The position numbers and the translations under genes are program-made. Below, piece after piece: positions 7,440-51,200 of a stretch of DNA of 64,000 nucleotides. Under the pieces are notes generated by a model. The model was not told where the DNA came from. It ran no database searches and saw only the letters and a list, made by a program, of their open reading frames with translations. Each line of letters begins with the position of its first letter. The stretch's first letter is position 1. This DNA comes from Owenia fusiformis (lineage: Eukaryota; Annelida; Polychaeta; Sabellida; Oweniidae): assembly GCA_903813345.2 (NCBI GenBank), contig CAIIXF020000009.1, forward strand, positions 17,137,759 to 17,201,758, given 5' to 3'.

Positions 7440-10100
7440 AGGGGTGACATTTTAATAAGTTTCCGTTGCATGCTAAAAATATATATTCCTATATTTTATA
7501 ATCGATTGTGTATTTGATGTATTTAAAAATAGCAGAAACGTTGCTCACAGAGGCGATTGATGAGGATAGGAAAATAACGTACCTGAACTCCCTCTAGAAA
7601 AGACGAGTAAACCGAGTATAATCCAACGATGACGCAAAATAGTCATTTTAGAAACCATTTCAGTTTTTCATTAACTGATAAAGGCAAATTGAAAATGTTC
7701 TCCTACATTACTTGGAGTCAAGTGTACAAGTCTGTTCCGCTAATAACTGATCCAACTTCATTATTCTATTGACGACGGATATTGCTGGATTATATAGAGA
7801 ACACGCCTCAGTACAATTCCGTAATGCATTAACTTCCTCCAATCCTCTACCAGCACAGTAGAACAAATTAATTCTTATTTGCCGATCAACACATTTGATA
7901 AAGTAAATATGCTTTATATCTCCTTTTAGATTGCTTAATTGAGGCTCTAGATAACAAGTAAAATACACTATTCTTGTAGGTATTCTCGCAGGTCAGATCA
8001 ACTTATGAGAAAGCAGAAAACACTGGGCGGATCATTCCATAATGATGTAGCTCGGGGGGAGGGGTGGGTAATTTAAAAAGTAACTATGTTGACAGACATT
8101 GCGTCTATTATAGGTTTATCCTCTGGGATTCAATCTTACTTACTTTCTTACAATCATAGAGGTACTATTAGTGTGGCCCATTCCAAACTTTAAAGCTCAT
8201 TAGACGTTTTACGTTACTACCTATGCAAAGTAGGGTCAAAAGATTGCCGGTTCCAATACACCATTGGAAAGGTGAGAGTGTTAGCTTGAGGGACCTGGCC
8301 TGATCTCGGATGTTTGGTAGTTACAAAGTTGAAAAATTAACCCTTTCATCACCAAGGGTTAAAATTAAGAAATATATCATAATTTTTCGAATCAAAGTAT
8401 TTTATCATTGATTTTATATTTTCAATGTATTTGTTCATAATAACATATCTAGTGTCCCAAGAGACATGCTAGTGTGTAATTAAGATGTTTGACCTCAATG
8501 GCAATATTAGTATTTTGTCTTTATAGTTATCACTGAAAAATATGTGAAAATAATGCCAACTTTATTTTTAACATCATATTTTTCATTCATTTTTCGTTTA
8601 AAAAGGAGAATACACTTCAATAGTATAAATACTATATTGTCTATATGCTTCTCTACTTAGTTCATATGAGGGCGGGAGAGAGGTTGTATATGAAAATGTA
8701 TGTTTTACTGAATGCCTTTCTGACCTGTTACTCCTGAGAAACTGTTCATTCAAATCACCCCATATTTCATATAATGTATGCCTGTGATAGAACTTGACAT
8801 AAAAATATACTTTATGAGAAAATAGGCATAGAAATAGACGTCAAAGGTCAAGTTTTGACTTTAATGAATTCTCTTATAACCTGATATGTAATCGTACATT
8901 TATCCAAAGGTTTGGACATTTCATCGAAAAGTGTCGAGATAATGATCTAATAAGATTATGGAGCTCTGGTGATCTGGTGATAACGGAGTTGTTTAATTAA
9001 CTCTTTCATCTCCCAGGGGTCATTTTTTGAGAAAAATTAAAACTAAAATCCAAACACTAATGAGAAAAAAATTACTTGTAACATAAGGAAATATTAATAC
9101 TACTTGTATGCCCAAACTGCCAAAGGTCGTGTTGTTATCATGACCTTGACTTTATTTCTTAGAATCTTGCAGTTTGTTCAGCCGAACCAATTCTAATATA
9201 AATGTTTCTTTTTCATAATTTCATTTTGTCGCAGTACTTTATATGATTACCAAACCAATTGTATTAAAATTGCAAATAACAATATGTAACATTCAATGTC
9301 AAAGGTCATTATTTCATGTTTTCAATTTGTTATCTATTATTTCTCATATTACTTCATATTTTACTTTAAAATCTAAATTCTCTGACTCGTGGCTGATGGA
9401 TCATCAGACATCGAATCCAAGTAAAAAATAAGACGTTAACATAGCTTCAGCAACGTTCATTGAAAGTCTGAATACCCAAAGTGCGTAGATTGATTTTTTT
9501 CAAATTCAGATGGATGGAACAATGATATAGGATTCATACTCCATTCCTCTTCCCCTTTGATTGAAAATATGGATGTTCATTAACAAAGCTGACACATGTT
9601 TAATCAATGGTTAAATGTTTTCTCAATATGTTATATTATACTCCACACTGGATTCGACCTAGACATATATATATAATAAAGGTCATAGTCAAGTTTGTCA
9701 GGATAATCTCAATAATAGAACGATGGAAATGTTACCTAACTACATAGGAGATATGGTAAAACATAAAAACTCACCTGTTAACCTTTATTGTCTTTCTATA
9801 AAAGAAAACTGCAACTCCATGGAGTAGAAAATCCCAATGAACAAAATGTTCATGAATCTATACTGTATACTTGTCACAATATGATACTTACCATCATCTA
9901 CTGTACCCTTACTTGCAGATAATTAAAGATAGACCTTCGAACTATGATACAGGATTCTTCCTAAATAAAGAATCCTATATATATTTCTATATTTCGAGTC
10001 GGCGATACTATTACTAAGCCATTCCGATTCCATCATTCACAAGGGTATCCTTGTATGCGACTCTGCCATCTGTATGCTTCTTCATTTCATCTTCAAGTTT
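7440..10100. other. AT-rich stretch with diverged tandem segments, no gene seen
   Basis: No coding sequence is visible. Two diverged related segments, near 8280-8420 and 8930-9060, share a CTTTCATCnCC...AGGGGT context. Both are followed by motifs of the form AAAGGTCA (8843, 9122, 9297), suggesting an old duplication. A solitary 5' head of the hairpin-headed repeat family lies at 9808-9850. Confidence 0.4.
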
Positions 10101-10215
10101 CATCAGTGTCAAGATTTAGGGACAAAAATTTATGTCATTTTTAAGTAAAGCTTTTTTTCTTTACAATGACGAGTTGAGAAATTTAAAAACACCCCACTTA
10201 CTGAACTTTTAAACT

Positions 10216-12000: not shown

Positions 12001-12779
12001 CCCCTTTCCTTTAGCCTGTTATTTTGACTTTTAGATTTGGTATTTGTTGGATTCTGTTCTTTCACGACGTACAGTACATGTAGAATTGTAAAAACCATAT
12101 GTCATTGGAGAGAATACAGTAAAGATCGCTAAATATAGAAATGAACTTGCATAGACAATAGTATTGATAGTGATTGAAGAAATCCCCAAGAGAGCCCCTC
12201 GAGTAGACGGGATTGTTTTCCCCGATCATTTTCAATACTTTCACAAGAGATGGTTGGAAATCGATCTAAAGTTATGCCTTATATTTCTAATTTGATGATA
12301 GAGTATGATTCCAGGTGGGAAAGTCGTGTAAAAGGCGAGAAATGTTAAAAGAAATGAGAAAGTTTGACGGGCTTTTGACATGCGCAGAACTCATGCGCAG
12401 AAGCTCTTTTGGTAAAATGGTGATCAAATTTCTAACTTTGAAACATTTCCTTCATTTTATGGACTATTTTGCGATAACATTAGAAATACATGGTGTTGAA
12501 AGCACCCAATGATAGATATTAATCGGGAGGATGTACCGGTCAATACTAATATCGAAGGTAGAATACATATATGGAATTTGACGCGCCGACCTCAGAGAAA
12601 ACACTTCCGGTTTTATAACCAAATACTATCGATCAGAATATCTTATTGTAATGTAATTTCGCCAGACATCTGCTAATATGATATGTGAATATTTGTTGAT
12701 TTGATTGTTAATTACAAATTACTCAGAAGTACACGTAGGTACATGTAAGGTGAAGAACAAGTCAAGGTTTACATCGTAA

Positions 12780-15180: not shown

Positions 15181-15292
15181 TCAGTAAGTGGGATGTTTTT
15201 AAATTTCTCAACTCGTCATTGTAAAGAAAAAAAGCTTTACTTTAAAATGACATAAATTTTTGTCCCTAAACCTTGACATATATATCAAGTTT

Positions 15293-18359: not shown

Positions 18360-18480
18360 CATGACTTAGGTATGTCATTACTTTTGGTGTGACATTACTT
18401 CAGTATGGCATTAGTTTTGGTGTGACATTACTTCAGTATGGCATTACTTTTGGTGTGACATTACTTCAGTATGGGTACTA
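18360..18480. repeat. Short tandem repeat, about 36 bp, three copies
   Basis: Units contain TTTTGGTGTGACATTACTTC and AGTATGGCATTA; the last copy degenerates into AGTATGGGTACTAC. It lies in the presumed TOM1 3' UTR. Confidence 0.8.
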
Positions 18481-19026
18481 CTTTTAAAATGTCCAGTTGA
18501 ATAGGGGTTTACACTACAGCATATAAAAGTAATTACTTACATCCCTACAATATTGCATCTCAGCTTACTTTCAACATTCATATAAATATTCTGAAAATGT
18601 TGTAAAATGCAGTACAAGAGTAACCATGGTAATGACAATGTAATTTATCACAGTAACAAAAGTTTCTATGGTTGCCATGGTACAGAAAATCTATTGCAGT
18701 GACAAATCTTTAATTGTATTTCAGATGTGTTGTAGTGATTAATTTACTAGGAAGCAAAAATATTATGATATTTTATGACTAGCTAACTACAGTGAAAGCA
18801 AATGATTTTCATTGAAATATATATTGATTTAGTAGAAATAACTTGAATAAAAGACAAGTCTATCTGTGAATATTAAATGTCATTGAATTTTCACATATGT
18901 CATCTAGACATCTTCAAAAATACCTACATCTGTGTTCCCCATCCTATCCACAGATATTCAAATCAAAGCAATATTTAACATAGTTATTTCATTCTCTCAG
19001 TAAAAACCTAATGCCATTGTCTAAAC

Positions 19027-22197: not shown

Positions 22198-25100
22198 CTA
22201 AAGTGCAAACATTTTATTGTCAGTGTCTTCCTGTTTCTGCATCTGTCGTGCTTGTTGGTTACTCCTTCCTGCACCACTAGATGTTGCTGCTGTGGTGTCT
22301 GACACACGGTCTGACAGAAACTTGTCGAATTCTGCAAACAGCAATCATTATTAATTAAGCAACGGTACCGGAAATAAATAGTTATACAATCGCAATCCAT
22401 GCAAATGATGTTATAATCTAATTCATTCTTTAATAGTATGATAGACTTGTACTTTTGAGCAAAATAACAGTGTAAACATCATATTTCATCACACATCTGA
22501 TAAATACCAGACATAATTAATCACCAGGCAAGATGATTTTCCAAAAGATGATGTGTCTACTTGCATGAACCTTTTTATAAAAATATCAACAAAATCAATT
22601 TCTCAAGTTATAGTGAAAATTAATATTAAAAATAACACATGGCCGTACTTTGATTTCATTAGTTAGTTAATAATTGTAAATTGTAAGTGTTACTGCAGTA
22701 TTGTTAAAGAGGTTAAGCTACACGTTCAAATGCAAACTGTGAACCTGAAGGCGAAAGTCCACGCTCAAGTACACATTTAAGAAAATTTTCTGTTAAGCTA
22801 CGCGTCTGAAACCATGTCAGTGGATGTCAAGTTATATTTATTTGGTGACAGTGTCTAAGGGTTATGGCTCTATGGTGTAATGGTTAGCACTTAGGACTCA
22901 TGTCCGTTAGGCCTGGGTTCAAACCTAGATGCATGAAAACATTTTGTTTTTTATTTTTGCTTTAATTCATATTCAACCACAATTCAATTACTTTAGTATC
23001 ACTTCTTGCTCATATCAAGGGTGGAAGTAGTAAGAAAGAAAATGCCTCATTCGAAAATCAAATGTACGGATAATGCAATAGTAGGCCCTGGTTGTCATTT
23101 CATTCTGTTTAGTATAAATACTGTCCAAGCCCCAGGTATTAAACTAGCCCTGCCTATTTATATTATACGAAATGAAACCAAACTATCACATTTGAAGTTG
23201 TCATTAATCCATTAAAATGTATTCTTATTTCCTATGAAGGATTGGGGTTTACCAATATAACAAGCAAGAGTATCTGTATCAAATATGGGCTCCTGGGCCA
23301 TCCTAGAACATAGCTAAAATCAATCACGTAATGAGCGACGTGTAATCACTCATCTACATGTAAAAACCTGTAACTTTCACGCTTACCTGTAGAAAGTAGA
23401 CTAATTTGACACCATTTTCCTGCCCGCGCATAGAAGTACACATTCATATTTTGTTGAATACGCGTCTGTAAATTGCACCAATATAATAATCTCATGTAAA
23501 AACCTGTAAACTTCACGCTGGCCCACAGGAAATAAACAAATCTGACGCGCATTGAAGTTCACGTTCAAGTTTTGTTCAATACATGTAGCTTAACCTCTCT
23601 GTTGTTTATTTTATTTACCTGTACTAGTCATACTGGTGTTGGTGTTATTGTCCCCACTTGGCTGAAACATCACAGCATAAATCCGTTCATTAAAAACATA
23701 TTTTTAAAAACAGCAAATCCTCTGAGTAGCAGATCCCATCAAACAAAAACATATTTTATCAAATCAATTGTTATTTTGAATATTTCATGATAAAAATAAC
23801 AAGGTAGTAGGACATGTATTGTCTCATTTTGGCAAAATCTATATTCCTGATACAGGCCTGTCAACTTGGGAACACCTAACATGAGTGACTTGGAAATGTT
23901 GAACACCTCCCCTCAAAATGTGGACACCTTGGTCCAAATCTGAACACCTTGATCCAAATTTTGAACACCTTGGTTTAATTTTATTACATCTTGCCAAATT
24001 TTGAACACCTCAAATTTTTCGCGAAAAATTTCGAACGAAATGCGTGACATATACGTAATTCGCGTGAAAAGTCCGAACGAAATGCGTACATTTTTTTTCG
24101 GCGTTCGTATTTTTGATGTGTAGACGATCTTTTTTAGAAATTTTTCTACAGAAATATTTTTGCTTGACAATTACCAGGTAAAATGCGTATTTGCGTGACA
24201 TTTTCTGTCACGCAAAAATAACTGGCGTGACTTCAAATTCTTCAGCAAATGCGTGACAAATACGCAAATTGCGGGACAGTTGACAGGCCTGCTGATATGA
24301 CACAATATTAGAAATTCCTTATCAGTAAGAGTTTTATAGCAATAAGGCATCACTGTTCCAAGATTTGGATGAATGGTCATGAATTATATTTCTCCTGAAC
24401 AATTGTGGCAATTTTGAATAAAGCAGATATTCTGCAAATTTCCTTTCAAGGGATGTACTTTTTCCATAAGACAATCCCTCCACTTCTATTTCAGTTATAG
24501 CACAAATTGTAAAATAACACACATAGAAATGGCCACCATTTTTCAAAATAGCCACTTACTAGCCAAATTGTCATAAGAAAGTGATCTATGCTTGTAAGTA
24601 GGCACATATGAAATTTCCAACAAAATCGCTCCACTACTTTTTAAGTTAGAGTATAAAACGTAAAATACACACATTAAAATGGCAGACATTTTAAATGCCT
24701 GCCTACTCGCCAATGTGTTATAAGACAGTGTGCCATGCTTATGAGTATTCATATACCAAATATGAACAAAATCCCTATCCTACTTTTTGAGTAACAGTAT
24801 AAAATATATAATGGCAACCATTTTTCAAAATGACTGCCTACTAGCCAGTGTCATTTTAAAACCGGTGGCCTTTTTGAAATTGACTTTCGGGCAGTGTTCT
24901 CCCATGAGGCAAATAAAATATAATCAAAATTGGTTCAACAGTATTTGAGTTATTGCCTGGATGAACAGACAGGCGGACGAAGCCATTCTCTATATCCCCC
25001 TGAACTTTGTCCGATGGGATAAATAAGGCTGTAGCAGACCATGTGGTTCTGTATATGCTGGACATCTAAATTGACCATATACAGGGTGATCAATAAATAA

Positions 25101-28100
25101 GGTAAAAGTATCTGGCATTTTGTAAATATTGGTCCAAACATCCTGAAATTTGGTCAGAATATACCTTGTACATTTCTAAATTAAAACATATAAATATATA
25201 ACTTCTGCCATATGATCGGTTAATATTATATTTACCATGGCAACTGGAGTCAGGGGTACCCGGGGCAATTTCATTGCGTCCAATTTGAACAAAAAATGAT
25301 AAAAAGCACATCTTTTTCAAACTAAAAAGAAATAAACGTGGGTGCCAGCATTTATTGTTTTAATACTTTGTTTCCATTGTTACATATTCTTTTTGCAAAT
25401 TTGATGTTTGATGTCACAGAAAAGATAAATATATAATAAAAACTGATGTGATCATAGAAAGTCTATGACACAGGTCAATGATGAAAAACAATTTCAACGG
25501 AAGAGATTTGATAAGAGCAAAGAGGAAGAAGCTAAGAGGCCCGCAAAACGTTTCACATTGCACTGGGATAATGCCCCGTCTCACAATGCTATTCATGCGA
25601 TACAAACCATTGAAGCACTGGATTTCCCACTGTTAGGTCATGTTCTATACTCTCCTGACTTGTCCCCTTATGATTTTACTTTCATGGTGAGCAGAAGAGG
25701 GAGTTGAGGAAGTTTCTCACGGGAAGACTTGAAGTCAGCTATCTTGAAATTTTGCAGGCTATGGGAAAATGGATTTAAAAAGGTGTTCAAAGACTCTGAC
25801 TGGAGTAGAAGACATGAACTATATGTTAAAAACAAAGAACATTAAGTAGAGTAGTTATGAATCCTAATATAAGAATATGATATGTCATTTCAATTGTGAT
25901 TTGAAGAATATTATCAAAAGTGCTTCGACTGAAAATTTAGTTTTTTGATAGTTGCCCCGGGTCTTCATGCTTTCTGTTGCTATGGCAACCATAACTTCAA
26001 CCAATCACATCACTTTGATCTGTAACTTAATATATCAATTCAATGATGTTGGAACATTATTCTGTACAAATTTTATGAGGATTGGGTAAAATCTGAAGAA
26101 ATGCCAGATACTTTTACCTTATTTATTGATCACCCTGTATGTACTGATTGGCTGAGCTGTGACAGCTTAATTAATACCTTGACCATAGTCCAAGACTGTG
26201 GGCCTTCAAACAATGGTTCTAAGATCATAATTAAACACTAGCATATAAGATTTTAGCCAAATCTGTTTGAGAACTCAAAGATTTTTTATTTCCATAAGTC
26301 ACCAGCCTATAAAGGACTTAATCTGATAACTACAATAGTATGTAATAAATTATATTTTTCGTTAGAAATGGTGGTAATTTTTAATTCAGTTGCTATTGAC
26401 AGATATGCTACATCCATAGGCATTGGCCAATGAAATCTCAACCAAATCCAAAAAATGGTGGTCATTTTTAATTCAGTTGCTATTGACAGATATGCTACTT
26501 CCATAGGCATTGCCCAATGAAATCTCAACCAAATCCAAAAAATGGTGGTCATTTTTAATTCAGTTGCTATTGACAGATATGCTACATCCATAGGCATTGC
26601 CCAATGGAATCTCAACCAAATCCAAAAAATGGTGGTCATTTTTAATTCAGCTGCTATTGACAGATATGCTACGTCTATAGGCATTGCCCAGTGAAATCTC
26701 AACCAAATCCAAAAATTGTGGTCATTTTTAATTCAGCTGCTATTGACAGATATGCTACGTCTATAGGCATTGCCCAATGAAATCTCAACCAAAACCAAAA
26801 AATGGTGGTCATTTTTAATTCAGCTGCTATTGACAGATATGCTACGTCTATAGGCATTGCCCAATGAAATCTCAACCAAATCCAAAAAATGTGGTCATTT
26901 TTAATTCAGCTGCTATTGACAGATATGCTACTTCCATAGGCATTGCCCAATGAAATCTCAACCAAATCCAACAACTGATGTTTGATAAACTGAGGGAAAG
27001 CTTTTCAATATCCCTACTTGAACTATGTCCAGTGGGACAATAATCTGGATTTTATGTCAGACATAGTTTTACATGATATCTGTTTTCATCAAAGTGCACA
27101 AAAAGAGGCTTGCAGAGTATCTTTTAGTTTCCATTAAAAAAATTAACTTGGCAGGTCTGATTCAATGAGTGTATTTTCTTCTTACGAACAAAAAAGAACT
27201 GCACATAAAAGTAAAGGGAAGTAAAAGTGTGACTCAATATTAACAATTTTATTTCATGTTCAAACATTCTTTGATATTCAAAAGAGGAGATTCATGTTTA
27301 TAAAACTGTCAGTTGGGTAGTATGTCTTGTAAAATAACATATTGGATTGTCATTTATTGTATTATCATTGCAATTTGCAATAATGCATTTAATAATAAAG
27401 CTTGATGTAGTTTTAATACTCACAATATTTTTATCTGGCATTTTCCCAGTTTTCAACCAATTTTCCATTTCGGCATAATCACTTTCTTTGTCTAATAACT
27501 GAAAACAAAAATTCAAAAACAATTAAAGACAAGAATTAATTAATTCAATTTATTATAATTATTATCTATTTATATCTTTATGGTTTATTAGTTCACTATT
27601 TAACATTCAAACATGCTTTCTGACAAAGTGTTCCAGCCTATGATCTAGCTCTATGTTTCAAATAACACCGCAACACTTCCCAATTCTAAATGTCATAATA
27701 CACAGGCCCGTAGCCAGGGGGGGTTCGCAGGGTTTGGGCGAACCCCCCCCCCCCCCTGGCCAAAAAATCTTTCAAAATCATGCAGTTTTTCACCATTTTG
27801 AACACTTCTCAAGTGATTTTAGCCATATTTGGGCCAAAATTGTCAAATGTGAACCCCCCCTGGAAATTTCTGAAAAATGAACCCCCCCTTGGCAAATCCT
27901 GGCTACGGGCCTGATACATAAATAGGCCTAAATGATACATTATCTAGGAAATTAACACTTTCAAGCAATAAAATGAAATAAGTCAGTTCAAAAAGCTAAA
28001 AGACGGGAAATGTCAAATAATTTCCCTAAAGTGTTTATGTTTTACTCCTAAAAAGGTCACATGCCATATAACACAAAACCTTTTCTGTAATAACAACAAG

Positions 28101-30258: not shown

Positions 30259-33200
30259 CTGAATGAGAAAACAGCACATAATAAGAGCATATAATTATAT
30301 AAATGAACAGCATGTACAAAGTGCATATAATATATGAATGAACAGCATGTACAGAGTGCATATAATATATGAATGTACAGCATGTACAAAGTGCATATAA
30401 TATATGAATGAACAGCATGTACAAAGTGCATATAATATATGAATGAACAGCATGTACAAAGTGCATATAATATATGAATGAACAGCATGTACAAAGTGCA
30501 TATAATATATGAATGAACAGCATGTACAGAGTGCATATAATATATGAATGAACAGCATGTACAAAGTGCATATAATATATGAATGAACAGCATGTACAAA
30601 GTGCATATAATATATGAATGAACAGCATGTACAAAGTACATATAATATATAAATGAACAGCATGTACAAAGTGCATATAATATATATGAATGAACAGCAT
30701 GTACAGAGTGCATATAATATATATGAATGAACAGCATGTACAGCGTGCATATAATATATGAATGAACAGCATGTACAGAGTGCATATAATATATGAATGA
30801 ACAGCATGTACAGAGTGCATATAATATATGAATGTACAGCATGTACAAAGTGCATATAATATATGAATGAACAGCATGTACAAAGTGCATATAATATATG
30901 AATGAACAGCATGTACAAAGTGCATATAATATATGAATGAACAGCATGTACAAAGTGCATTTAATATATAAATGAACAGCATGTACAAAGTGCATATAAT
31001 ATATGAATGAACAGCATGTACAAAGTGCATATAATATATATGAATGAACAGCATGTACAACGTGCATACAATATATAAATGAACAGCATGTACAAAGTGC
31101 ATATAATATATATGAATGAACAGCATGTACAGAGTGCATATAATATATATGAATGAACAGCATGTACAGCATGCACATAATATATGAATGAACAGCATGT
31201 ACAGAGTGCATATAATATATGAATGAACAGCACGCACAGAGTGCATATGATATATGAATGTACAGCAGGTACAGAGTGCATATAATATATGAATGAACAG
31301 CACGCAGTGTGCATATAATATATGAATGTACAGCACACACAGTGTGCATATAATATATGAATGAACAGCATGTACAAAGTGCATATAATATATGAATGAA
31401 CAGCATGTACAAAGTGCATATAATATATGAATGAACAGCATGTACAAAGTTCAAAAAATATATGAATGAACAGCATGTACAAAGTGCATATACAGGGTGG
31501 GCCAAACCCCCCCCCCCTAGCCATTATTCCTAATAAATATTCATTTTTTTTAACATGCATACCAACAATGATATATCATTTTAAAGATAATTTAATTTGC
31601 AACCAGAACAATGGCAACGCCAAAGCGTAGCGAATCCCATCGAACAGCCATGGATGGCATTTTTACAAACAAAGTATATAGCAAAAATGGCAGACATTTT
31701 TCAAAATGGCCGCCTTCTACCAAAAGTGTCATTAGACCATTTGCCATACTTATAGTATTCACATACCAATTATGAACAAAATCGCTCCACTACTTTTTGA
31801 GTTATAGTAAAATACGTTAAAATGGTGGCCATTTTTCAAAATGGCCGCCTTCTACCAAAAGTGTCATTAGATAGTGTGCCATGCTTACAGTATTCACATA
31901 CCAAATATGAACAAAATCGCTTCACTACTTTTCGAATTATTATAAAATACATTAAAATGGCGGCCATTTTTCAAAAAAATTTTCAAAATGGCCACCTTCT
32001 ACTAAAAATGTCATACGATAGTGTGTCATGCTTTTAGTATTCATATACCAAATATGAACAAAATCGCTCCACTACTTTTCGAGTTATAGTAAAATATGTT
32101 AAAATGGCGGCCATTTTGAAAAATGGCATTTTTACAAACAAAGTATATAGCAAAAATGGCAGACATTTTTCAAAATGGCCGCCTTCTACCAAAAGTGTCA
32201 TTAGACCATTTGCCATACTTATAGTATTCACATACCAAATATGAACAAAATCGCTCCACTACTTTTTGAGTTATAGTAAAATACGTTAAAATGGTGGCCA
32301 TTTTTCAAAATGGCTGCCTTCTACCAAAAGAGTCATTAGACAGTGTGCCATCCTTATAGTATTCACATACCAAATATGAACAAAATCGCTTCACTACTTT
32401 TCGAGTTATAGTAAAATAGGTTAAAATGGCGACCTTCTACCAAAAGTGTCTTTAGACAGTGTGCAATGTTTATAGTATTCACATACCAAATATGAACAAA
32501 ATCGCTCCACTACTTTTCGAGTTACAGCAAAAATCGTAAAATAACGAGTAAAGGCCGCCATTTTTCAAGATGGCTGCCATGTGCTTCTTTAATATCTACA
32601 TTTCTAGCTTTATAAATGTCCTATATAACTTTTTTACATCTAAAAAATATTGCTATTACAGTTTTACATATTGCACCTAAATTACTGTAAATTCGGCACT
32701 AAAATGGCCGCCATTTTAAATTGAGTGGCCATTTTGAAAATCGGCTTTTGAGCAGAACTTCTACCCCCATGGGGTATATGTGTACAAAATATGAACAAAA
32801 TCGGGCCAACGGTACTTGAGTTATTGCCCGGACGGACGTACGTACGTACGGACGGACGGACGGAGGCGTTCCCTATATCCCTCCGAACTTCGTTCGTTGG
32901 GATAACAAAATGATATATTATAGCACCATTTTCAACAACCCCATATAGAAATATAACCAATTACGTGACATGGGGGTCAAAAAACACCTTTTCAATTTTC
33001 AACGATTTTGCGAACAATAGCCTATTTCTACCAAATTTTACTGTTCAGTTAAAAATTGCAACATTGTCATGAATCTTTCATAATTGGATATTATATATTG
33101 TTTTCATTCAGTTTTTTAACCATGCATGCTCAATAAACATTTAGGTCGTTGAAGTCGTTTATTTAGAAGTATTCTTAATTGCTGAGAGGATCATTTCATT

Positions 33201-36200
33201 TATAACTGTTTCTATTAGCCTGGACGCAAATGCATTGTTGACAAACCTAGTCCATAAAGACGTGTTCCAAACCTCCCTTTGATATCCCTTGAAGATTTGT
33301 TCAAGCTGTTGAAATCAGTCCCTTATCGGAATCAAACATATGACCTCTCATATGATGCTTTAGCACCCAAAATGTAGTGAAATGAAGCCCACTGGTGCTT
33401 CATCTGGTGAATATTGTATGGTGAATATGGGGCAGTAACAACTTGTGTGAACCCTAATTCTTCAAGAGTAGTATGGGCAGTTAGAAGGAGTGGGAAGGAG
33501 CATGGCCATAATAGAGGATAACTCCCCACTATTTTGAGTCATGATTGTGACTTTGAGAGTCTGACCAATGATAAAAAAATAGAGCAAAGTACACTCGTAT
33601 ATCACAATACAGAAGTTACTTTAGAAACTAAAGTTGGAAGTATTTGAAAATATAAAATCACAGAAACATCATAATAATATGTCCACCAAATAGGTATTAA
33701 TTAACCATACTTTTGGATCAAGCAAAATTTGAATTCATTTTTATTTTACTTGACCCGCTACGCCATTTGTCATGTTGCTATAGTAACAATAATTATCCAT
33801 TGTGACATCAGATGACAATGAGGCTGTTTTATCCATCCCAAAATCACAATCCCATTTACCTTGAAAATTTCAAGTGAATTGGTTGATAAATAATGAAATG
33901 ACAGATAAATTCCCAGAACTTAGTGATCACCCTGTATATGAATGAACAGCATAACTCAAGTACATATGCATATAATATGTGAATGATAGCACATGCAAAG
34001 TGCATGTAGTATATCAATGAATAGCACAGATAAAGAGCATATAACATATGAACAGCATGTATGTACAAAGAGGCATATATAGTAAATGAATGAACAGCAC
34101 ATATGGAATGCATATAACATCACAGATAAAGTGCATATAATATATAAATGATCAGCACATACAAAGTGCATATGTATAAATGAACATTGCATATCTAGTG
34201 CATATAGTTTATGAACTAGAAAACAGCAACTCCATGGAGTAGCAAATCCCACAGAACAGCACATGTTTGATAAATAGCGATTTTGAAATTCAGCAGCCAT
34301 CTTGAAAAGTTCTTCTTTTGAACCCAATTGATCCACTGGTATTTGAGTTATCAAACATTTTTGTATGAAAAATGTCAGCCATTTTCAAATTCAGCAGCAA
34401 TTTTGAAGATCTCTTTTTGAACAAAGCTCCTTTTTCCCTAGGCAACAGCATACAAAACTTGAACTCAATATGTCAACTAGTAAAGATTACATTTTTCCCT
34501 AAAAATTAAATTGAGCGGACATTTCTTCTTGAGAGAAGTCCTACACCCATAAGATATAAGCCTAAAAATGTAAATAAAATCTGTCAACTGGTATTTGACT
34601 TATCGCCTGGACACACAAATGGACAGGTGAACTGACTGACAGATGGCCGCACAGACAGCTTTTCTATATCCCCTTGAATTTCGTTCAGTGGGATAAAAAT
34701 ACAAGAAGGTATTCATACACCTAGAAACACATAATTTAAGAAATGACAAGAAGATAATAACATACAATTGTTGAATCAAGATTAAAGATTTTACTGTTCA
34801 ACTATTAGAAATATATCAAAACCATAATTTTGCTGAACAATTACATATTGTGTCAAACTTACATTATTTCCATACGGGTTTCCAGTATTTTTAGCATTGA
34901 CTACAGATGCAAGGTTTCCCGCATAGGCATCTTGCTGTTGATTTGAATAAACTGCACCAGCGCTGAAATATGCAAAAAGATAAATGCATGTATTTGGATA
35001 AAATTGATGAACATCTAACAGAAATCCTTATACATTTATATAATTGTTCATCTTTAAATCAATAATATTATCAGCATGATTTATTATCTCTAAAATATTG
35101 AGCAAATGTATCATCATATTAAGCCATCTTAACTAAATTATCACCATCTATCTGATCAATGTCATCAAAAGGCTCAACTCCTCATGAATATCATGAATTG
35201 GAAGTTGATAGAACCATTTCTTTCTCAAAAGGTTTGAGGGAAAGAGATTGTGAAATATTTTCTGTGAGGTATCAACTTGTATAGGCTTACCTAGGGGGTT
35301 GTTGACTATTACTTTCAGCACTGAAATGACACAAAGCTTTTATTTATAGGACTATTAAATGTCAAGCCTACAATATAATGTTATGTTTACAGAAGTAGAG
35401 GGAGACTGCTATACTATTATCGATCAACGTTAATGGAGACATTTATAAAACAATGCCAGCAAATGCATCATTAATAACTCATGAGCACTGATAATAATGA
35501 ATTATGTAATGGCGTTAACAAATTATCTAATTTTTCTAGTTAATCTAATTATAATACTGTAGGCCTAGCTAATATAAAGCAGCATAATTGATAAATGCAA
35601 GTTATCATAAATATTTCATAAATTACTTTCTTAACATACCTTAAATTTTGTCTATTTTGGTCAAAAGCCTGTCTTGACTGGGCAAACATGTCAAAGTCTG
35701 AGTCCTGGGCAGTATTTGTGGTGCTGGTTGTGTTGATGTTGTCCAAAGTGCTGCTCACACTGCCTGCTCCAACACCTGGCAACAAACACAGGAAATGTCA
35801 TGTCTACATGTAGCTACCAGGCTTCAATAAGAGTGAATAGATGTCCTCTGCTAGAGCCTTCAATAAGAGTGAATAGATGTCATCTGCGTGTGTGGTGAAA
35901 CAAGGCATTAACATGAAAAATGTCACAATATGCCATTTGTTACAGATGCCAACCACTACTAAAATTTCTAAAAACTAAAAATTCTGAAAGATATGTTAAT
36001 CTTCTAATTCTGTCACTTGCCTCATGCCTTTTGAAATTAAATAAATAACAGCAATGCCAAGGCGTAGCGAATCCCATCAAACATCTGATGAGTGTCGGAC
36101 AATACTGCTAGAAATCAGGTCTCAAAATGGCCACTTTAGATCTATTGCCAAAAGATAATGTGTCATTCTTGCATGTATTTACAACAGTCCTTTAACATAT

Positions 36201-39200
36201 CAACAAAATCATTCTAACACCATTTTTCAAATATCAATAGTGCCATTTAAGCAAGTTATCAAAAGAAAATGTGCCATGTTTCAAAGTATTTACATATGAA
36301 ATATCAACAAAATAGTTTTCTAGTTTAGTAAAACTGTAAAATAACCTACATAAAAATGGCTGCCATTTTTCGAAATGGCCACCTCTTAGCCAAATTGTCA
36401 TTAGGTAGTGTAAAATGTTTCTAATATATAATATTATATGTTGTAACTAAAATACTGTGAAATCAACACTACAATACATAAAAATAAATATTAGATAGTA
36501 TTAGAATTCTTTTTATGCAGTTGAATCTCCAATCGTATAGGTTGATCGGCAGAAAGAGAAAATTTTTGTTTTTAATTACAAAATTCATCCATGTAGACTA
36601 TTGGTATATAAGGGGATTCCCCTTCCTACATCTTGAAAAGTGCTGAGACATTTCTGATGTAAGATGACTCTCTTTGTTCTGCCTATAAACCCATACAATT
36701 GATGATTCAACTGCATAAAAAGAATCCTAAAATACTCAGGAATGTATCGAGGTATGTATTTTAAGTGTGCAATGAGCAGTATTTTCTCCAGCATTGTAGA
36801 AACACTGCCTGAACAATAATTGGAACACAGGACTATAAGTCCTGGAATCGGATAAACCACAGATGATGTTCAATTAGCTAGTCAAAACATGGGCTTTTAA
36901 GAGAAAGCTCATTGTCAAAACAACAATCAGTGACATCAAAAATGACAATTGTACAAATGTTGCGTTTACATGTACAGTAAAACCTGTCTTAGTGAACACC
37001 TCTCTCTAGTGAACACCTGTCTCTAGTAGACACCCTTCCTCCACATACTCTACTGACTTCTGTATAAATTACCCTCTCTGTAGTGAACACCTACCAGCAC
37101 TAGCTAGCCTAGCATCTACTCACTCATATTAGCTAGCCTAGCAATTGTGGGTGTAGTAAATGGAAATCTTCTCACTCATATTAACTAGCCTAGCATTTAT
37201 ATCCCCTTTGGGTGTAATAAAAAGAAATCTACTCACTCATATTAGCTAGCCTAGCATTTATATCCCCTGTGGGTGTGGTGAATGGGTTAGATGCTGTTGG
37301 TTGAGGACTAGGGGTGCTCAGGTCAATCAGGTTGGCAATTGGTTCAGTGGCAGCAGGCTGAAGTTAAGAAATTTTAGCATTTTAACTATAGTACAGTTGT
37401 GGGAAGGAATATAATTACATAACAGGCATTAAGTGGGGAAGAATTGTTGTTGCATGGCTCAAAAACTCCAACAATATGTCCCCTGGTGCTATAGAAATTG
37501 TTTAGTATGATTTTATGATTTTCAAATTAATTGAATGAATAAAGTGTTGAATAGTAAATACTGCATTAGAATTATGTTTGCTATAAGAGGAATTGTGAAG
37601 GTCACTTTACGCACAACTGGTTACCTGCGAGGTTGGCTGACTTGGTACTGCACTGCTGTATGTTGGAGGAGCCACATTGCCTACACTGGCATTACTCTGT
37701 GACGTCACCTCACCACTTGAAGGTGCATTTTGGCCTGTTCTGTACCGTTCAAATCGATCATAGCGCAGAAAGACATTATTTAAATCATCATTGATGATAA
37801 GCAATTCACCTGAAATATTAACTTATTTGTCATCCATAAATCAAAACTAGCAAACAAACATAGAAGTAGGTAAGAAGAAGAATGTTAAAGTGTTCAAATC
37901 AATATGTATCAGAAAACCAGCTATAGAAATATCAATGGCATATTGCATGCTGTGGTGTAGTCTGAGCATAACAATGAAGCTGAACGGTTATTCAAGAGAA
38001 AAAGCTACATGTATAGGTGATTGATATGTTTACATTTTCGTTTCATTTTTATATGCAAGCTTAGAAGCAAACTTGCAATAGCCAGTGACTTTATTGAAAG
38101 TGCATTCCTACTATACTGTACTATACTGTCTGCCTTTACTGTGTACTGTACTATGTTGTGAAATAATTAATATTACCTGTGACCTCTTCATTTGCTACTT
38201 TATCTATGAGTTCAACCACTCTCTGCTGCATCTGTCTGCATGTTCTGTTCAATTCCTGCAAGTGCAAAGTCTACATTCATGAGATGCATACACACAAGCG
38301 GCTGCCAATTATGGGTTTCGACACAACTTTAAAGAAAAAAAGAACTGTCATAGGTAAAACTGCTCTATGGAATTGTAGCATCACCAGACCAGTTAAATAA
38401 AGTGTAGTCATGGTTATTGAGAGATCATACCCCATCCCTACCTGGAGAAGATCTAGGTCTTCTGGGCTAGATCCTGTAGGTGTCATTTCTGTCAACATCT
38501 CCCCAAATACACGAATATTTCCTTGTACTGTGTCCAATTCACTACGTAGCTTGGCCATCTGCTCTGCATTCAACTGTACTGGGCCTGAAGCCACATAGGC
38601 TGTCTGGGGAGGTTGGCCGACAAAAGGAGCCTGACCTGGTGGAACTTGTGGGGGAGCCTGGTAGGCACTCTGCAATCAGATGAAATACAGCACTGAAATA
38701 CATTTAGATAATATATTTGTTGTTAATCTTGCACCTGGTTATATCTAGTTTTATCATAAAAATATCAGACCTAAAACATAGCAATGTGGGCTTGTTGACC
38801 CAGAAAGCAAGATGGCCACCGAAAAGTTAATCAGCTAGAGCTTACCATGTAACATGTGTAAAAATTTGAAAGAAATCCGTGAAGTGATCTTCATGGAATC
38901 ACAATGACAAGATTTATCTAAAAACTTCTAAAATGGCTGCCAAAAGTTAATCAGTTCTAGAACTTCTTACCATGTAACATGTGTAAAACTTTGAAGTAAA
39001 TCAATAAAGTGATTTTCCTGGAATTGATATGGCAAGATTTATCTAAAAACTTCAAAAATGGCCACCAGAATGCAAGATGGCCGCTGAAAAGTTAATCAGC
39101 TCTATAACTTCTTACCATGTAACATGTGTGAAAATTTGAAGCAAATCCATGAAGTGATTTTTCTGGAATTGTAGATTATAGATTGATCCTGTAGATTATA

Positions 39201-42200
39201 ATTGATTTTATTTATTTGTCATATCCGGACGGATGGACGTAGGTACGAAGGTGTTCCCTATATCCCTCCAAACTTCGTTCGATGGGATAATAATAAAAAC
39301 TTAGGTACAATGACAATTTGTATCACATTTCAAGCCATCAGAAAAATTCCTTCATAAGGTAGAAATTACTGTAACATACAGCTTTCTTTCATTTTACATG
39401 TAAGCCAAAGAGGACTATGCACTTATAGTTTTATTAGGTAGCATTCGCAAATGAAACTGCATGCTGCCATTGATTTAAATATGAAAAGTACCTGCAGTGA
39501 ATCCAGGTAGCTGTAAGCTATCGTGTCAAATCGCTGAATCGCTGACCTAAATAAGTCATGTGATCTATGTTCGTTATTTGGACTTCAAAATGACGGATTT
39601 GATTTATGCAATTGAATATATTAATCTGGCAGCCAGCAGTTGAATTTACAAATGCTAGCTTAGTTTTGTACTTACAGCTCTTGTTGTGGCACTGGGTGTT
39701 CTGGTGGGTGTGTGGGCAGCTGGTACTGTGGGCTCTACATCTGGGGCACTCTATATACAACAATGCAACATGGTCAGAGTCAAGCCAATACTTCATTATT
39801 GTCCAATAAGTAATTAATTACATGTGGCAATAAACATAACATCTTGACATTGGCCATATAAGCATTGTGATTTCCAATGTCAAATCAACAATATTCACAC
39901 CAGGACAAATGTGAAGTCCTCAATCAATATTTTTGATATACTGATACTGTATAATCAAAAATTAGTAAGGTGAAAACAAACCAAAAGTAAAGTTGATATC
40001 AATCCTTTTATGATGCCTTGACAGTACTTTGAGACTGGGGTTTCTCACATGCTAAACTAGTTAATTCATTCTTTCTAATGTCAGAGCAATGTTTACTGGA
40101 CAAGGTAAACTAAGACCATCTTACCTTTGCAGGTGTATGTATGGGTGCAAGTGTGTCCAGATCTGTCATGGGGAACTCTATTCCTTTTTGTTTCAAATCA
40201 AGGTACTGTTTTTCTACTTCTTTTAATTCGGGGGAACCTCGGAATGCATCTGCCCATGTCTAAAAGAACAATCAGATAATCATAACAGGAGCTTTTTTAA
40301 AATGGTTGCAAATTTGCATATGCAATGCTACTAGATAGTATACAGGAACGAATTGTTGTCAAAATGACAAGATGTCATTATCAGAATTGATGGAACTTCA
40401 AAAAATTTCACTTGAGTAAACGCAAAGTTTGGACAAGAAAAACAGGAACTCCCCAGAATAGAACATCCCATCAAATTCCAGATTTTCTATAAAATCACTG
40501 TTTATTTTGAACATATTAAAATGGAAATAACCAGGCAGTAGTATTGACTACCTTTTGTTTGAAGCTTCTAGCCCAATTTTCAAGGATGTTGCATCAAGTT
40601 TTGTTAAATTCAAAAGAAATAAAAAAAAATTTGGGGGGTTGCTTATTTCTTGATCGCACATCCCCCCTGACCAAAAACCGAATTTTTTTTTGGTGAACGC
40701 ATCCCACTGACTGAAAGCTGGCTACTCCTGATCAACCTCAAAATTTGGACCAAATCTAATATAAATACTAAATAGCGCATCAAATTTTTACCAAATCTGA
40801 CACATGACAGTGTTTGAGTCATCAAAGATTTTTTCACAAAAATGGAGACAACTTTGAACTGAGCAGCCATATTGGAATTTGCTTTTTGACTAGAAGTTCT
40901 ATGCCAATAATATCAGCATATTTTAAACTTGATCCATCAACTCACTTGTATTAAGATGTCATCCAGACAGACATACAGAAAGATAAAGAAATGAAAGAAG
41001 AAATGGACAGATGGATGGACAGACAAATAGACAGCTTTTCTATATCCCAACTATATTCCTTGGTATCAAAATGCTATTTATTCACCTATATACAAGACTA
41101 CACACACACACACATACCTACATTAAATTACTCACATATAATTCTGCTATTGGCACTTACCTGACCTATTTATTCATCTATATACAAGACTACACACACA
41201 CATATACCTGTATTAAACTACTGAACTCACATATAGTTCTGCTATTGGCACATACCTGTATTAGACTTAGTATTTTCTCTTGGACAACTTGTGGTGGGTC
41301 ATTCTTTGGGCCAATTATCTTAATCAATTCATGTAAAAAGTCTTTGTTTGCTACATGTACATGAAATCTTCTGCCGCAGTTCTTCACACAAGTTTCAAGG
41401 ACCTGAAACAAAAAATACAGGCCATTAACCTCTTGAATCCCAGGCTCTAAAATCAGTTGAAACCAGAGAATGTTTTACTGGATAGCTATACAAATTTAGA
41501 TGCTCAACCTAGTAAGGGCAGGGGTCATTTATACACATTTTAAAACAATTTTGTTTAAATTGGATGAAAATTGTTCAAATAAGAGCAATTTTAGTGAAAA
41601 AATTTGGGACAAATTTTCTCGTCACTCTGGGTTTCAAGGTCATTTCTAAGGTTATTTTTTCTTGTCACTCCAGGTAGTCAAGAAGTTAACATAGAAAATG
41701 CCACCACCTACCATTTGCTACAGACCCTGAATGCTGATCACCTAACACCCAACACCATCCACAAAAAGTTGGAGACTATAACAATATCTCATCAACTTCT
41801 GGTGGTGACAGAAAAAACATACCATAAACAAAAAAAGAGTAATATAATGAACAGAGGCATATACAATAAAATGTTCATTCAAAGGAAATAATTTCAAATG
41901 TGAGATAACAAATCTCAATAAATATGAGGTTTGAACAGCAAATAGCAGGTAAGAATATGTTAGATTAACACAATGCACAAGGTTAGGGATCCAATGTTGC
42001 AGAAAATCTATCAACCAGTATTTTCTGGACAGACAGACAGGCTGCAAATGGAAGGACAGGAGGATGGCTTCACACTTTCCCACTAAACTTTGGGATGATA
42101 AAGTTAAAACCCCTATACATGAGATATGAAAGAATTTGAATGATGAGGTTTGTGGCATGCCCCATACATGAGGATGAAACTTCAGAGAACAAATACATGT

Positions 42201-45200: not shown

Positions 45201-48200
45201 GTCGTATGTGGAACTGTACGCTCATTAGAGAAAATACGGTATCTTAATATTAAAAATCTAGTTGTAATTCAAAAAATAACTGATCATTTATCTAAACAGT
45301 TCATTACTGGGAAGCAAATGCAATCATATACAGTCTGATCATGCTTTAAGTACAATTCAAGATTACTCTTACCCATCTTCAGTTTCATTGATGATGTCAC
45401 ATATCTCCATGTTCAATGCCCAGTTCTCAGAGGCAAGGGAAGCATCTGTAGCTTGGTCTGGAAATCAACAGAAATCAGCTGAGTGAATTAAACTGCTTTA
45501 AAAGAATGGGTGGAATAAGCTCCCATTGCACCAAGACCCTATCTCCTATCTCATGTGAGGATGAACTGTCATTTCCCAGGATCTTTCAAGTATAAAAGCA
45601 TTTGTCATAACACAGTATTTCATATAAAAACACGGAATATACGAGGGTATATCATAAAGTTCTCATAATATCTCTCTAGTTTTTTTATTTTTCATCATAT
45701 TCTCATGAAATTTTCATATAGAATGCTGTATTAATCTATCAAGAAATATTTGGTATAATAGAAATATTAGATAAGTAATGGTTGCCATAGTAACCGGAAA
45801 TCAAGGCACCCGGGGCAAATAAAAATAATTGAGATATAATGAGCTTTATTAACCTTGTTTACATACATAAAAACTCTCATAAATTATCAAACACATTAAA
45901 ATGTTATATTGAATATGTTGTTAAATGCTTTTACTATAAAATAAATTGATCATGTGAATTGTGTGATGTCATAGGGGATGCTTACATGCTTCATTAGATG
46001 TGATACCAGACTCTGAGAACCAAAGCTTAACTAGATAATGGCAACTCCGCGGAGTAGCAAATCCCAACGAACAAAATATCAATTACCGAATTCCAATCAA
46101 TTATACTCATTACTTTGGTTAAAATTGAAAAATTTAGATTTTAGAATTGCAAATTCCTGCAAAGCAGCCATTTTGAATTTTCTGAGGTACAAATCTGAAA
46201 AATAATACCATAATAGTGATCTACTCCAAAATTCCTTCAATTTGAGTATTATATAGCCATACGTTGAAGGGATCGAAAAATTATTGCGAAATCGTACATT
46301 AGACGGCCATTTTGAATTTTACGAGGCTCGAATCAGAAAAAAGATACAATATTTGCAATCATTTGAGTATAATAAACCTATACTTCAGAAAGATCTACAA
46401 ATTAGCGAAAATTTCTGTTTTCCTGACCCCCCATACACGGCCCCTGGGGGTCAGGATGAAAAACACGGAATATATGTGAAATAGATAGATGTTGCGAATA
46501 TACTACCAAAATTTCAAACAATAATATTAATTACTTTGGTTTAGAATGGAAAATTTATGATTTTTGCGAAAAAGTCCCGTCATTTTTAAAGCAGCGGCCA
46601 TCTTGAAAAAATCCATTTTGAATTTTCTGAGGTACAAATCTGAAAAATAATACCATAATTGTTATCTGCTCCAAAATTCCTTCAATTTGAGTATTATATA
46701 GCCATACTTTGAACTAGGGATCGAAAAATCATTGCGAAATCGTACATTAGAAAGCCATTTTGAATTATAAGAGGCTCGAATCAGAAAAAAGATACAATAT
46801 TTGCAATCTACTCTTAATTGCCTTTCATTTGAGTATAATAAAGCTATACTTCAGAAAGATCTAAAAGTTAGCGAAAATTTCTGTTTTCCTTACCCCCCAT
46901 ATACGGCCCCTGGGGGTCAGGATGAAAAACACTGAATACATGTGAAATAGATAGATGTTGCGAATATACTACCAAAATTTCAAACAATAATATTAATTAC
47001 TTTGGTTTAGAATGAAAAATTTATGATTTTTGCGAAAAAATCCCGTCATTTTTAAAGCGGCGGCCATCTTGAAGAAAATTTTTTTTGCATAAAACTTTTC
47101 ATCAATATCCATCTTTCCACCAAATATGAAGAAAATCCGTCTACTAATATTTGAGTTATCTTCCGGACGGACGGACGGACGGACGGACGGACTGACAGAC
47201 TGACGGACTGACGGACGGACGGAGGGCTTCACTATATCCCTACCGAACTTTGTTCGTTGGGATAATTATCAGAAATGACTGAGTTAGATAATGCATAGAT
47301 GCAGGGGTCATCAGAAAAATAATATTCATACTGATAAAAAATTTAGTTTAGTTCGAAAAATCCTTTGCTCATACTACATTGTACTAAAGATGATCTAAAA
47401 CAAATATGTTGCAAAGATATCAACAAAATTACACCCTATGCGTGGTCTATTATTTATTTAAGATGAACTGAAGTGGAATCGAGGAATAATTGACAAAACA
47501 GTTGTAGTGTCTAACATCACTTCTAATGAGACATTACAATCATCCATTATTTTTTTTTATTTTATTTTTTTATTTATTTATTTATTTATTCATATATATT
47601 TCAACATCAAATGTACAGTAAACGGGTGACACTTCTCGTGTATATTCCCGTGTTTATAATCATGAAATGTACAGATTGGGGATCTGCTTGTGTGATGAAT
47701 GCTACTATCTTTGTCTGACTAAGAATGTGTCATATAATGCCCACTATGGTTATCTGAAATTGATATTATTGATTGATAAAATATTTTTTCAATTCTTTTT
47801 TCATAATAAAAATACTTCCAGATGATGTTATTTCAATAGGTAATGAATTCCAAATTGATGGTGCAGTAAAAGATATCAAGGCTTTACCATAATTTGTTCG
47901 AATTTTGGGTTTGTCATAGTTTACCCTATTTCGGGTGTTGTAAGCATGTCTTTCTTGGATGGTACTGAAGAGTTTTGGAAATATTTTATGATAATTATGG
48001 AGTTTATTAATCCATTTGTACATGAAGATGCATTTCAACTGCTTATTAATATCAAATATATTCAAAATGTTCAGTTGTTTGAATAGGGGAAGGGAATGTG
48101 CTCTGTAGTTACTGTTTGTTGCAATACGTGTAAATTTTTTCTGCAAAATATGAAGGGAGTTTAACAAACCACTACCTGCTTCACCCCAGATAAGATTGCC

Positions 48201-51200
48201 ATATATCAAATAAGAGTAAATAAGGGAATAATAGATGCTCAAGAATGCCTTATCATTTAACAGTTGTTTGACCCTATATAGAATACCAATGGTTCTGGAG
48301 ATTTTAGCATTAACGGACATAATATGACGTTTCCAGTTTAAGTTTTGATCAATTGTAATGCCAAGAAAATTAATGCTATCAACCTGCTGAAGCTTCTTTT
48401 TATTAAGATAGATGTTTATGTTATTTGCATTATTATCTTTTTTTTTTATAAAATCAAACTTTATTAATAAACATATTTTACATTACATGCATACAATAAG
48501 ATAAAATACAATTATAGAAATTTCAAGTTACATTACATCTTTCTGATCATTATTTCATTATCAAAAATAGCTTTTACATTACTAGCTGTATTGACCCTTT
48601 TTTTAAAATCATGTATAGCTTTTTTAATTACCAACGTTTTAAGTAAATCTTCTTTTTTAACAATTGCATTTCCAATTCTTTGATCATTTGTAACATTCAC
48701 ATCATCCCAAATTGATTTAATACAGCCACAATTGATAAAGAAGTGGTCAATGTCATATTTTACATGTTATTTGCATTATATCTTTTTTGACTTGAGGTGA
48801 AAATAATATATTTTGTTTTATCCGCATTAAGGGATAATTTATTAGTGATAAGCCACTCCTCTATTAGTTTTAGTTCAGTATTGAGAATTATGATTATGAG
48901 ATCACAAAATTCACATGACCATTATAATAGTTCAAAACAGTCAAGAATACATGGTGTTTAACAATTTGGTGTGTTACATAGCTTATTTGATAACTTATTA
49001 TGCATTTAAACATGGTTAGTTGTGGCTATTCTTGCACAATTCTTTATTTGCCCCGGGTGCCTTGATTTCCGGTTACTATGGCAACCATTTTATAAATAAT
49101 AGTTCTGTTATACCAAATATGTTTTGATAGATTAATGCAGCATTGTATACTACACATTCTGTGAAAAATTCATCAGAATATATTGAAAAATAAAAAAATT
49201 AGAGAGATATTATGAGAACTTTATGATATACCCTCGTATGTGAAATATAATTGAAACAGTGATATTTATTACTTAAATTCCTAAGGCATTAAGGCATAAT
49301 ATGGCATTGTTGTTTCTTCTTGTCTTCTCTCATGTAAAAATAAAACATAAACCAGCCTGGTCTTCATAATTAAATTATTTTGAACTACAAAACAGCAACT
49401 CCACGGAGTAGCAAATCTCACCGAACAAAACATGTCTTGATAAATAGCAGCCATCTTGGAAAATTTTCTTGAACAGACCTCCCCTTTCCTAGGTATATTA
49501 GTTATCAAAGATTACATTTTTTGCAAAAAATGGCGTTTTGATATTCAGCTATCATCTTGAAAATTTCTTTTCAAGCAGAGTTCTTTTGTCCATGGGAATC
49601 AGTATATAAAATTTCAAAGAAATCCGTCCACTCACTGGTATATGAGTTATCAAAGATTACGTTTTTTACAAGAAATGCCAGCCATTTTGAAATTCAATTA
49701 CGTACTATCTTAAAAATGTCTTCTTGAGCAGGGCTTCCTTAACTCTAGGCATCAGAATATATACAGTCAAAACAGAAATGTTTGTGACTACTTTGAATTT
49801 AAAAAATAAGCAATCAAATGACCATATTGAAACAGTTTATGTAAAAATAAAAACATTTATATTTATCCTAACTTTTGTATATTTCAGATAGTAATGCATA
49901 ATGTGCAGCAAAGCTGTATCCTTTTGTAATTTAGGGAGTTTCAGCCATGTTAATTTTTCCAAAAATAACATGGCAGAGAAGTATCAAAATATAAGGGGAC
50001 ACAGATATGATAGCTAAACTACAAAACAAACTAAAATATACAAAAGTTAGGATAAATAAGATAAATAAAAACTATTTGCAAAATAAGTTTGATTCTGATG
50101 GGGGCAGAAAAGGAGGTCTGTTGGGACGGTACCTTTGATAGCAATCTGGAAAATGTATTTTTGAACAGAGCTCCCGCATCATGAGAAATCAGGGCCTTCT
50201 ATTAGCTTCGCACTAGTATGCCATGAGACAGTTGGAGCCTACCTTCGATCTAGGCCCGTACAGTTTTCTTGAAAATGCTGAGGGCCAATCAAATCAATTA
50301 TTTGACCAGTGAGAGATTCATTTTAGAGACTGAACATCTTGATGGACATCCTTATCTTACCCTAATTGGGGTCATAAAACTAAATGGGTTGATACCACTT
50401 GAGACACTAACAAAGTGACAATACAATATTATGTAACACTTTCAATGTGTCAACATTAAAGGGCCATAAATAATGGCGCCTAAATAATGGATAATCATCA
50501 TGCTTAAAATGTTGTACCCTCCCATTTGTCGATATCAGAATTGTAACCAACTAAATCAGAGCATACTTCTGGTTGAAGACAGAAAGATGTGAGAGTATCA
50601 GAATGGAGCTTGCTTGTTCCAAGGTATCAGCATATAAAATCTGAACTTAGTCTATTGGTTTTGAGTAATCAAAGATTAAATCTTTTTACAAAAAATGAAA
50701 GTCATTTTAAATTCAGTGGTTGGGCAAAGCTCCTTTGTCCCTAGGCATCAGCATATAAAATTTGAACCAAATCCGTTAACTAGCATTTGAGTTATCAAAG
50801 ATAACATTTTTTACAAGAAATGGTGGCCATTTTGAATTGAGTGGCCATATTGAGAATTCCTTCTCAAGCAGAGGTCCTACAACCAAAACGAATTTGCCTA
50901 CATACCCCTGAGACTCTTATCTGATAGATAGAATGCACAAATAAAACAAAAGTTTTGCTACTAAAGGTAAAAAGTTCTCTTGAAATTTCGAAGTGATTTT
51001 ACCTGTTAATTCTGTCCATGGTCCGTCATTTTTTGCGGAAGTTACACTGAAATGCAAACTCCATGAAACAAAACGAAATCACTAGAAAAAAAACATGGCA
51101 CACATTGTGCGCATGTGCTGCAAAGTTTAAACAAATCAGATCATTTGATTATTTTGCGCACATGAATTATTTGCTTCTGAGCACTTACAAGCTTACCACA

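Follow-up and report, generated by a model that had tools for sequence, protein, structure and literature searches.

The 64-kb stretch of DNA analysed here (the window) carries a family of repeats that, read along the plus strand, have a short palindrome at the head and GGGATAA at the tail, which raises the question of which class of mobile element they belong to. The first-pass annotation found that they fit no class it could name with certainty, and offered a hairpin-ended Helitron-like element or a novel foldback element as possibilities. We conclude, with a probability of about 0.93, that the repeats are decayed HINEs, non-autonomous Helentron (Helitron2) rolling-circle transposons, which run 5' to 3' on the minus strand. 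This assignment follows from how both ends are built, from the microsatellite, from the internal repeats that differ between copies and from the lack of any Helitron-type ORF (of at least 90 aa) in the window. The guess of a Helitron-like element with hairpin ends was right, since the order of the parts matches that of published HINEs, and the class is one already named and described. A repeat that seemed unclassifiable can now be named, and its orientation, which had been reversed, is corrected: what was called the head, with the palindrome, is the 3' end, and the GGGATAA tail forms the 5' end.

The repeat family is real. We built position-weight matrices from the copies and scanned both strands of the window, using ten first-order Markov simulations of 64 kb each as the score baseline. 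Nine heads were found (9814, 23716, 28496, 31617, 34229, 36054, 40448, 46044 and 49398), all on one strand (plus, as previously written), with leave-one-out scores of 28.2–49.8 compared to a simulated best of 13.8. All seven palindromes listed by the annotation are present at their positions, although the scan of both strands reaches nine heads and not the 'at least ten' copies proposed. Six clear tails end at 25022, 28754, 32905, 34696, 39290 and 47265 (leave-one-out scores 22.2–43.9, simulated maximum 14.6), and these account for six of the nine GGGATAA occurrences on the plus strand. An additional, weaker tail ends at 27040 (score 20.6), and the tail at 41068, with a score of 9.2, is within noise; its upstream part resembles the 34229 copy. 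The tail is a hairpin in its own right, and for this reason some tails give scores (up to 21.6) on the opposite strand as well. The copies and parts of copies, designated by the position of the palindrome where there is one, are as follows.

23702..25022, minus strand: two-ended HINE copy of ~1.3 kb (palindrome 23716; 5' end 25022), from the head and tail scans.
28482..28754, minus strand: short two-ended HINE copy of ~0.27 kb (palindrome 28496), from the end scans and subTIR comparison; its 3' subTIR is strongly decayed.
31603..32905, minus strand: two-ended HINE copy (palindrome 31617), from the head and tail scans and tandem repeats; it has a 135-bp internal array and a GTCC-type tract at 32829-32864 (GGAC on the plus strand).
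34216..34696, minus strand: two-ended HINE copy (palindrome 34229), from the head and tail scans.
46030..47265, minus strand: two-ended HINE copy (palindrome 46044), from the scans and subTIR comparison; its GTCC-type tract lies at 47164-47223.
40434..41068, minus strand: probable two-ended HINE copy with decayed ends (palindrome 40448; head 28.2 leave-one-out, tail within noise); 41001-41048 is similar to 34617-34672.
9800..9842, minus strand: HINE 3' end only (palindrome 9814), from the head scan.
36040..36427, minus strand: HINE 3' part (palindrome 36054), from the head scan; its core resembles the 31617 and 23716 copies.
38800..39290, minus strand: HINE 5' part with an internal array (5' end 39290), from the tail scan; separate from the 36054 remnant.
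49384..50882, minus strand: HINE 3' part (palindrome 49398), far edge approximate, from the head scan; its core resembles the 34229 copy.
26366..27040, minus strand: probable HINE 5' part with an 87-bp internal array, from the tail score, the array and the sequence; a weak 5' end lies at 27008-27040 and no head was found.
60866..61125, plus strand: probable 5' part of a HINE that runs the other way (TTATCCC at 60866) and that failed the tail scan.

Three of the nine heads (9814, 36054 and 49398) lack a matching 5' end; the tail scan found none downstream of 9814 and none to match 49398. The 5.2-kb inverted arrays of a 91-bp unit (10107-15278) were considered as the body of the 9814 element and rejected, as the scan shows no HINE 5' end behind the arrays. 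The 34229 copy borders a 35-bp satellite array whose end lies near 34215; since AACAGCA occurs in the satellite unit too, the exact position of the copy's 3' edge is ambiguous.

On the minus strand, the elements begin with TTATCCCAWCGAAC (the 5' subTIR), followed by a short spacer, a complementary stretch (GTTCG..GGGAT) and ATAG; a GTCC-type microsatellite and then internal tandem repeats, which differ among copies, make up the middle. They end with GTTCGWTGGGAT (the 3' subTIR), a few bases, a 12-base palindrome, TGC[TC]RTT (in most copies) and T-rich sequence. The annotation had placed the ends at the palindrome. In the nine heads, information content is high to ~7 bases past the palindrome and fades by ~12–15 bases, an outcome that it had named beforehand as telling against its proposal. 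The last shared letters are CTAGTT in the 34229 and 46044 copies and GTAGTT in 49398, while the other six heads differ. At the 5' end, conservation starts at TTATCCC in all six clear copies, and the third base before TTATCCC is T in all six. Since conservation continues past the palindrome and starts at TTATCCC, the palindrome is subterminal and forms part of the 3' end, with the 3' subTIR ~30 bases from that end and T-rich sequence beyond.

Both ends can form hairpins. Across six copies, 63 of 66 cells are paired between the 5' subTIR and the inverted repeat next to it. Folded as single-stranded DNA, this 5' hairpin is clearly more stable than shuffled sequence in three copies (z scores of −4.0 to −4.9), with −1.0 to −1.7 in the other three. 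The palindrome stem has at least three of five Watson-Crick pairs in all nine heads, and all five in four of them. This 3' stem appears in the minimum-energy DNA fold of five of the nine copies (−0.9 to −6.1 kcal/mol, weak in the one at −0.9); the remaining four copies fold differently or not at all. In the five clear two-ended copies, a copy's own 5' and 3' subTIRs match at 12, 11, 11, 10 and 7 of 12 positions (all 12 in the 46044 copy), and the 46044, 31617 and 34229 copies reach the 11-bp subTIR level used for one HINE family.

The motifs between and near the ends are preserved to different degrees. The subterminal motifs previously described at head and tail are there, but in exact form only in part, with ATCCCAWCGAAC in two of nine heads and GTTCGWTGGGAT in three of six clear tails. 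The (GGAC)n tract said to precede the tail, the GTCY-type microsatellite of the minus strand, was called by Tandem Repeats Finder at two of the six clear 5' ends and is eroded at the other tails; one further GGAC-type tract (29671-29746) has no tail found behind it. That internal satellites differ between copies was borne out: tandem arrays are present inside several copies and vary from copy to copy, while the 23716 and 31617 copies have internal repeats in common.

This layout is that of published HINEs, in which a GTCY-type microsatellite and central tandem repeats are common but not obligatory. The Pacific oyster Cg_HINE, as described in PMC7492417, has a 5' subTIR of 11–12 bp, a complementary IR, a microsatellite (GTCC or GTCY, with GTCC, GTCY and GTCK given for several elements), satellite-like tandem repeats, a 3' subTIR and then a palindrome. 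The DINE-1 elements are described in the same order (subTIR, IR near the 5' subTIR, GTCY-rich microsatellite, central repeats, 3' stem-loop), although they have other subTIR sequences, such as ATACCCGTTACTC in D. melanogaster (PMC2374699, PMC4067079). Helitron2 elements share asymmetric inverted repeats, hairpins at both ends and a 3' repeat ~20–30 bp from the 3' end, but their autonomous protein was not seen among the window's ORFs of at least 90 aa (PMC3627910). Nothing in the copies departs from published HINE anatomy. We therefore regard them as HINEs of apparently new sequence and standard anatomy, as set beside published HINEs by described layout rather than by consensus letters.

A different reading would make the family a cut-and-paste MITE, with GTTCGWTGGGAT and its complement as terminal inverted repeats and the palindrome as incidental flanking sequence. 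Inverted repeats do lie near both ends, and elements of the HINE kind were formerly filed as MITEs; indeed, the bivalve pearl, CvA and DTC84 elements, which are likewise modular with short satellite-like arrays, are termed MITEs in the account of PMC5139131. However, conservation across the nine heads takes in the palindrome and the TGC[TC]RTT that follows it, both of which lie outside the inverted repeat; the repeat is therefore not terminal at that end, and we consider a MITE very unlikely. A non-autonomous family of canonical Helitrons (Helitron1) is a still slimmer prospect: it would agree with a 3' hairpin 12–15 bases from the end and with CTAG near the 3' end in two of nine copies, but the 5' end is TTATCCC and not TC in all six clear copies, and Helitron1 lacks the 5' hairpin and the subTIR that are both present here.

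The annotation had further proposed that third-position changes in the palindrome are matched on the other arm as if pairing is selected, which would fit a novel foldback element held together by such pairing. In the nine copies, 38 of 45 cells are Watson-Crick pairs, a number reached in 3.2% of 20,000 trials in which the arms were re-dealt, a test that ignores relatedness among the copies; when G.T on the minus strand is counted, 41 of 45 cells are standard pairs, reached in 1.5% of trials. With two outer pairs added, the percentage paired was reached by 8 of 500 shuffles and the covariation score also by 8 of 500. However, the cells changed on both sides were reached by 61 of 500 shuffles, and there is only one stem pair with changes on both sides, in two of nine copies, a count reached by 323 of 500 shuffles. 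Six copies have T-A here, two (31617 and 36054) have G-C, and 28496 has an unpaired A/C. The three copies that depart from T-A all have the plus-strand loop AA, and thus one ancestral double change would suffice; the copies with the changed pair, which share this loop, probably form one lineage. The plus-strand G.T cells of 28496 and 36054 are C-to-T changes in CpG if the subgroup majority is ancestral, while in 31617 and 40448 the G.T falls on the minus strand instead. The apparent covariation can thus be explained by one subgroup difference together with CpG decay. The 5' hairpin has one double change as well, C-G to T-A in the 34696 copy, which 229 of 500 shuffles reach or exceed, and it gives no excess over shuffles because most outer columns are invariant. 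Selection on stem pairing is possible, and compensatory change in the 3' stem of DINE-1 was already proposed in 2008 (PMC2374699), but the window does not prove it. As the whole anatomy fits a HINE, a novel foldback element is not supported and deserves almost no weight.

For the window's HINEs, a mode of transposition can be proposed from what is described for the family. An autonomous Helentron elsewhere would supply Rep/helicase in trans, which would nick at the 5' end and displace one strand; the palindrome behind the 3' subTIR would signal the stop of replication, and the product would insert at a T-rich site. HINE insertions are expected between two T residues or in T-rich sequence, with no target-site duplication, and the flanks seen here are T-rich. 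In the model of PMC3627910, the endpoint may be set by the 5' subTIR pairing either with the IR next to it or with its 3' counterpart. For Helraiser, a bat Helitron, the 3' hairpin is described as a terminator whose deletion lowers transposition and raises read-through (PMC4778049), and by analogy we infer that the palindrome may act as a terminator in the HINEs of this window.

A further idea, which we hold tentatively and think rather improbable, is that within one genome the 5' and 3' ends of each HINE lineage evolve in concert. Each hairpin has one compensatory pair, with T-A replaced by G-C in the 3' stem and C-G replaced by T-A in the 5' hairpin. A copy's own 5' and 3' subTIRs match at 62 of 72 positions compared to 58.3 expected (permutation P = 0.033) when the 36054/39290 pair, which is probably not one element, is counted; without this pair the match is 51 of 60 compared to 47.8 expected (P = 0.067). 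If it held in a genome-wide alignment, co-evolution of the ends would support the model in which subTIR-subTIR pairing and the 5' hairpin compete in setting where replication ends. The copies described here could feed a larger test of Helentron end recognition.

The window itself yielded no empty site, target site or autonomous partner. An empty-site test within the window, with 90 joins from six copies with shifted boundaries, gave seven weak hits that span the junction and no convincing empty site. The best spanning hit (E = 5.8e-12) falls in the 35-bp satellite to the left of 34215 and extends only 16 bases into the right flank, and alignment of this flank to the satellite (16, compared to a shuffled mean of 17) was no better than shuffled. 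Pfam scans (E ≤0.01) of every stop-to-stop ORF of 90 aa or more, 37 in all, gave no Helitron protein. Within a limited collection of papers, exact end sequences gave matches for one 12-base palindrome only, none on transposons by title. We also searched viral contigs with four end patterns for stray eukaryotic copies, in part with no match at all, and prokaryote genomes with one end pattern, and accepted no match from either as a HINE. The 33 stretches fetched from these collections scored up to 21.0 (head) and 23.8 (tail), above the simulated maxima, but are not taken as HINEs because much of that score comes from the fetching pattern itself and because of the very large size of the collections.

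The 36054 head and the 39290 tail are in the right order and enclose two exons (37730-37816 and 38442-38582) of TOM1, a gene named from matches to TOM1 chains in PDB and a VHS domain, with exons mapped by a human query sequence. That 36054-39290 is a single large HINE with captured TOM1 exons is nonetheless highly improbable and was rejected, since these exons line up collinearly with the rest of the mapped gene, whose exons reach 51791, and every confident exon match is unique within the window; therefore, the exons are TOM1's own, and two truncated insertions explain the two ends.

Pfam matches above the curated cut-off were reverse transcriptase (3995-4291), VHS (41193-41474) and LRR_4 (56521-56895). 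Below it were LRR_8 and LRR_9, together with two probable chance matches: a galectin model (2929-3216), and a phage tail model that hit the 87-bp array (26310-26732). The window also carries a gene for dynein regulatory complex subunit 3, which together with TOM1 marks the host as an animal or a close relative of animals; from its GTCC-type HINEs the host might, as a guess, be a bivalve or other mollusc. Rfam and tRNA scans of the window found nothing.

The HINE ends between 9814 and 49398 are all co-oriented, and this holds both for the heads, the palindrome-bearing 3' ends of these non-autonomous Helentrons (9 of 9), and for the clear tails, their 5' ends (6 of 6). By simple arithmetic, which assumes that the copies inserted independently, agreement among nine heads has a two-sided p of 0.004. 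The HINE copies that lie inside the mapped exon range of TOM1 have the same sense as the gene. The exception to the shared orientation is a single decayed remnant at 60866, which lies the opposite way. Other features in the window are as follows.

Genes, repeats and a reverse transcriptase fragment in the window
3995-4291, minus strand: fragment of a reverse transcriptase, matching Pfam RVT_1 at E = 7.3e-09
10212-11968 and 12836-15173: arrays of a 91-bp repeat, in mutually opposite orientation
29671-29746: GACG/GGAC-type tract
30283-31492 and 33935-34215: two arrays of a 35-bp satellite
37730-51791, minus strand: TOM1 gene
45639-45973 and 48895-49239: two copies of a separate repeat, in opposite orientation and 77% alike
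47769-48482, minus strand: 238-aa ORF
54346-59762, plus strand: dynein regulatory complex subunit 3 gene

The TOM1 and dynein regulatory complex subunit 3 genes are arranged head to head, and we take their human relatives, TOM1L2 and DRC3, to be neighbours likewise.

Several repeats lie close to HINE ends. Each array of the 35-bp satellite is found near the 3' side of one HINE (those at 31617 and 34229), and the second array stops at, or adjoins, the edge of its HINE. The two copies of the separate repeat lie no more than ∼60-150 bases from the 3' ends of the HINEs at 46044 and 49398. The GACG/GGAC-type tract resembles those that flank HINE 5' ends; no recognisable HINE 5' end was found behind it.

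A Pfam scan of the 238-aa ORF returned no match; only by eye does it resemble the C-terminus of a non-LTR reverse transcriptase.

The 91-bp arrays, separated by a spacer of ∼0.8 kb, are part of an inverted structure of 5.2 kb (10107-15278, outer limits approximate), and the outermost 105 bp of its two arms are 97% alike.
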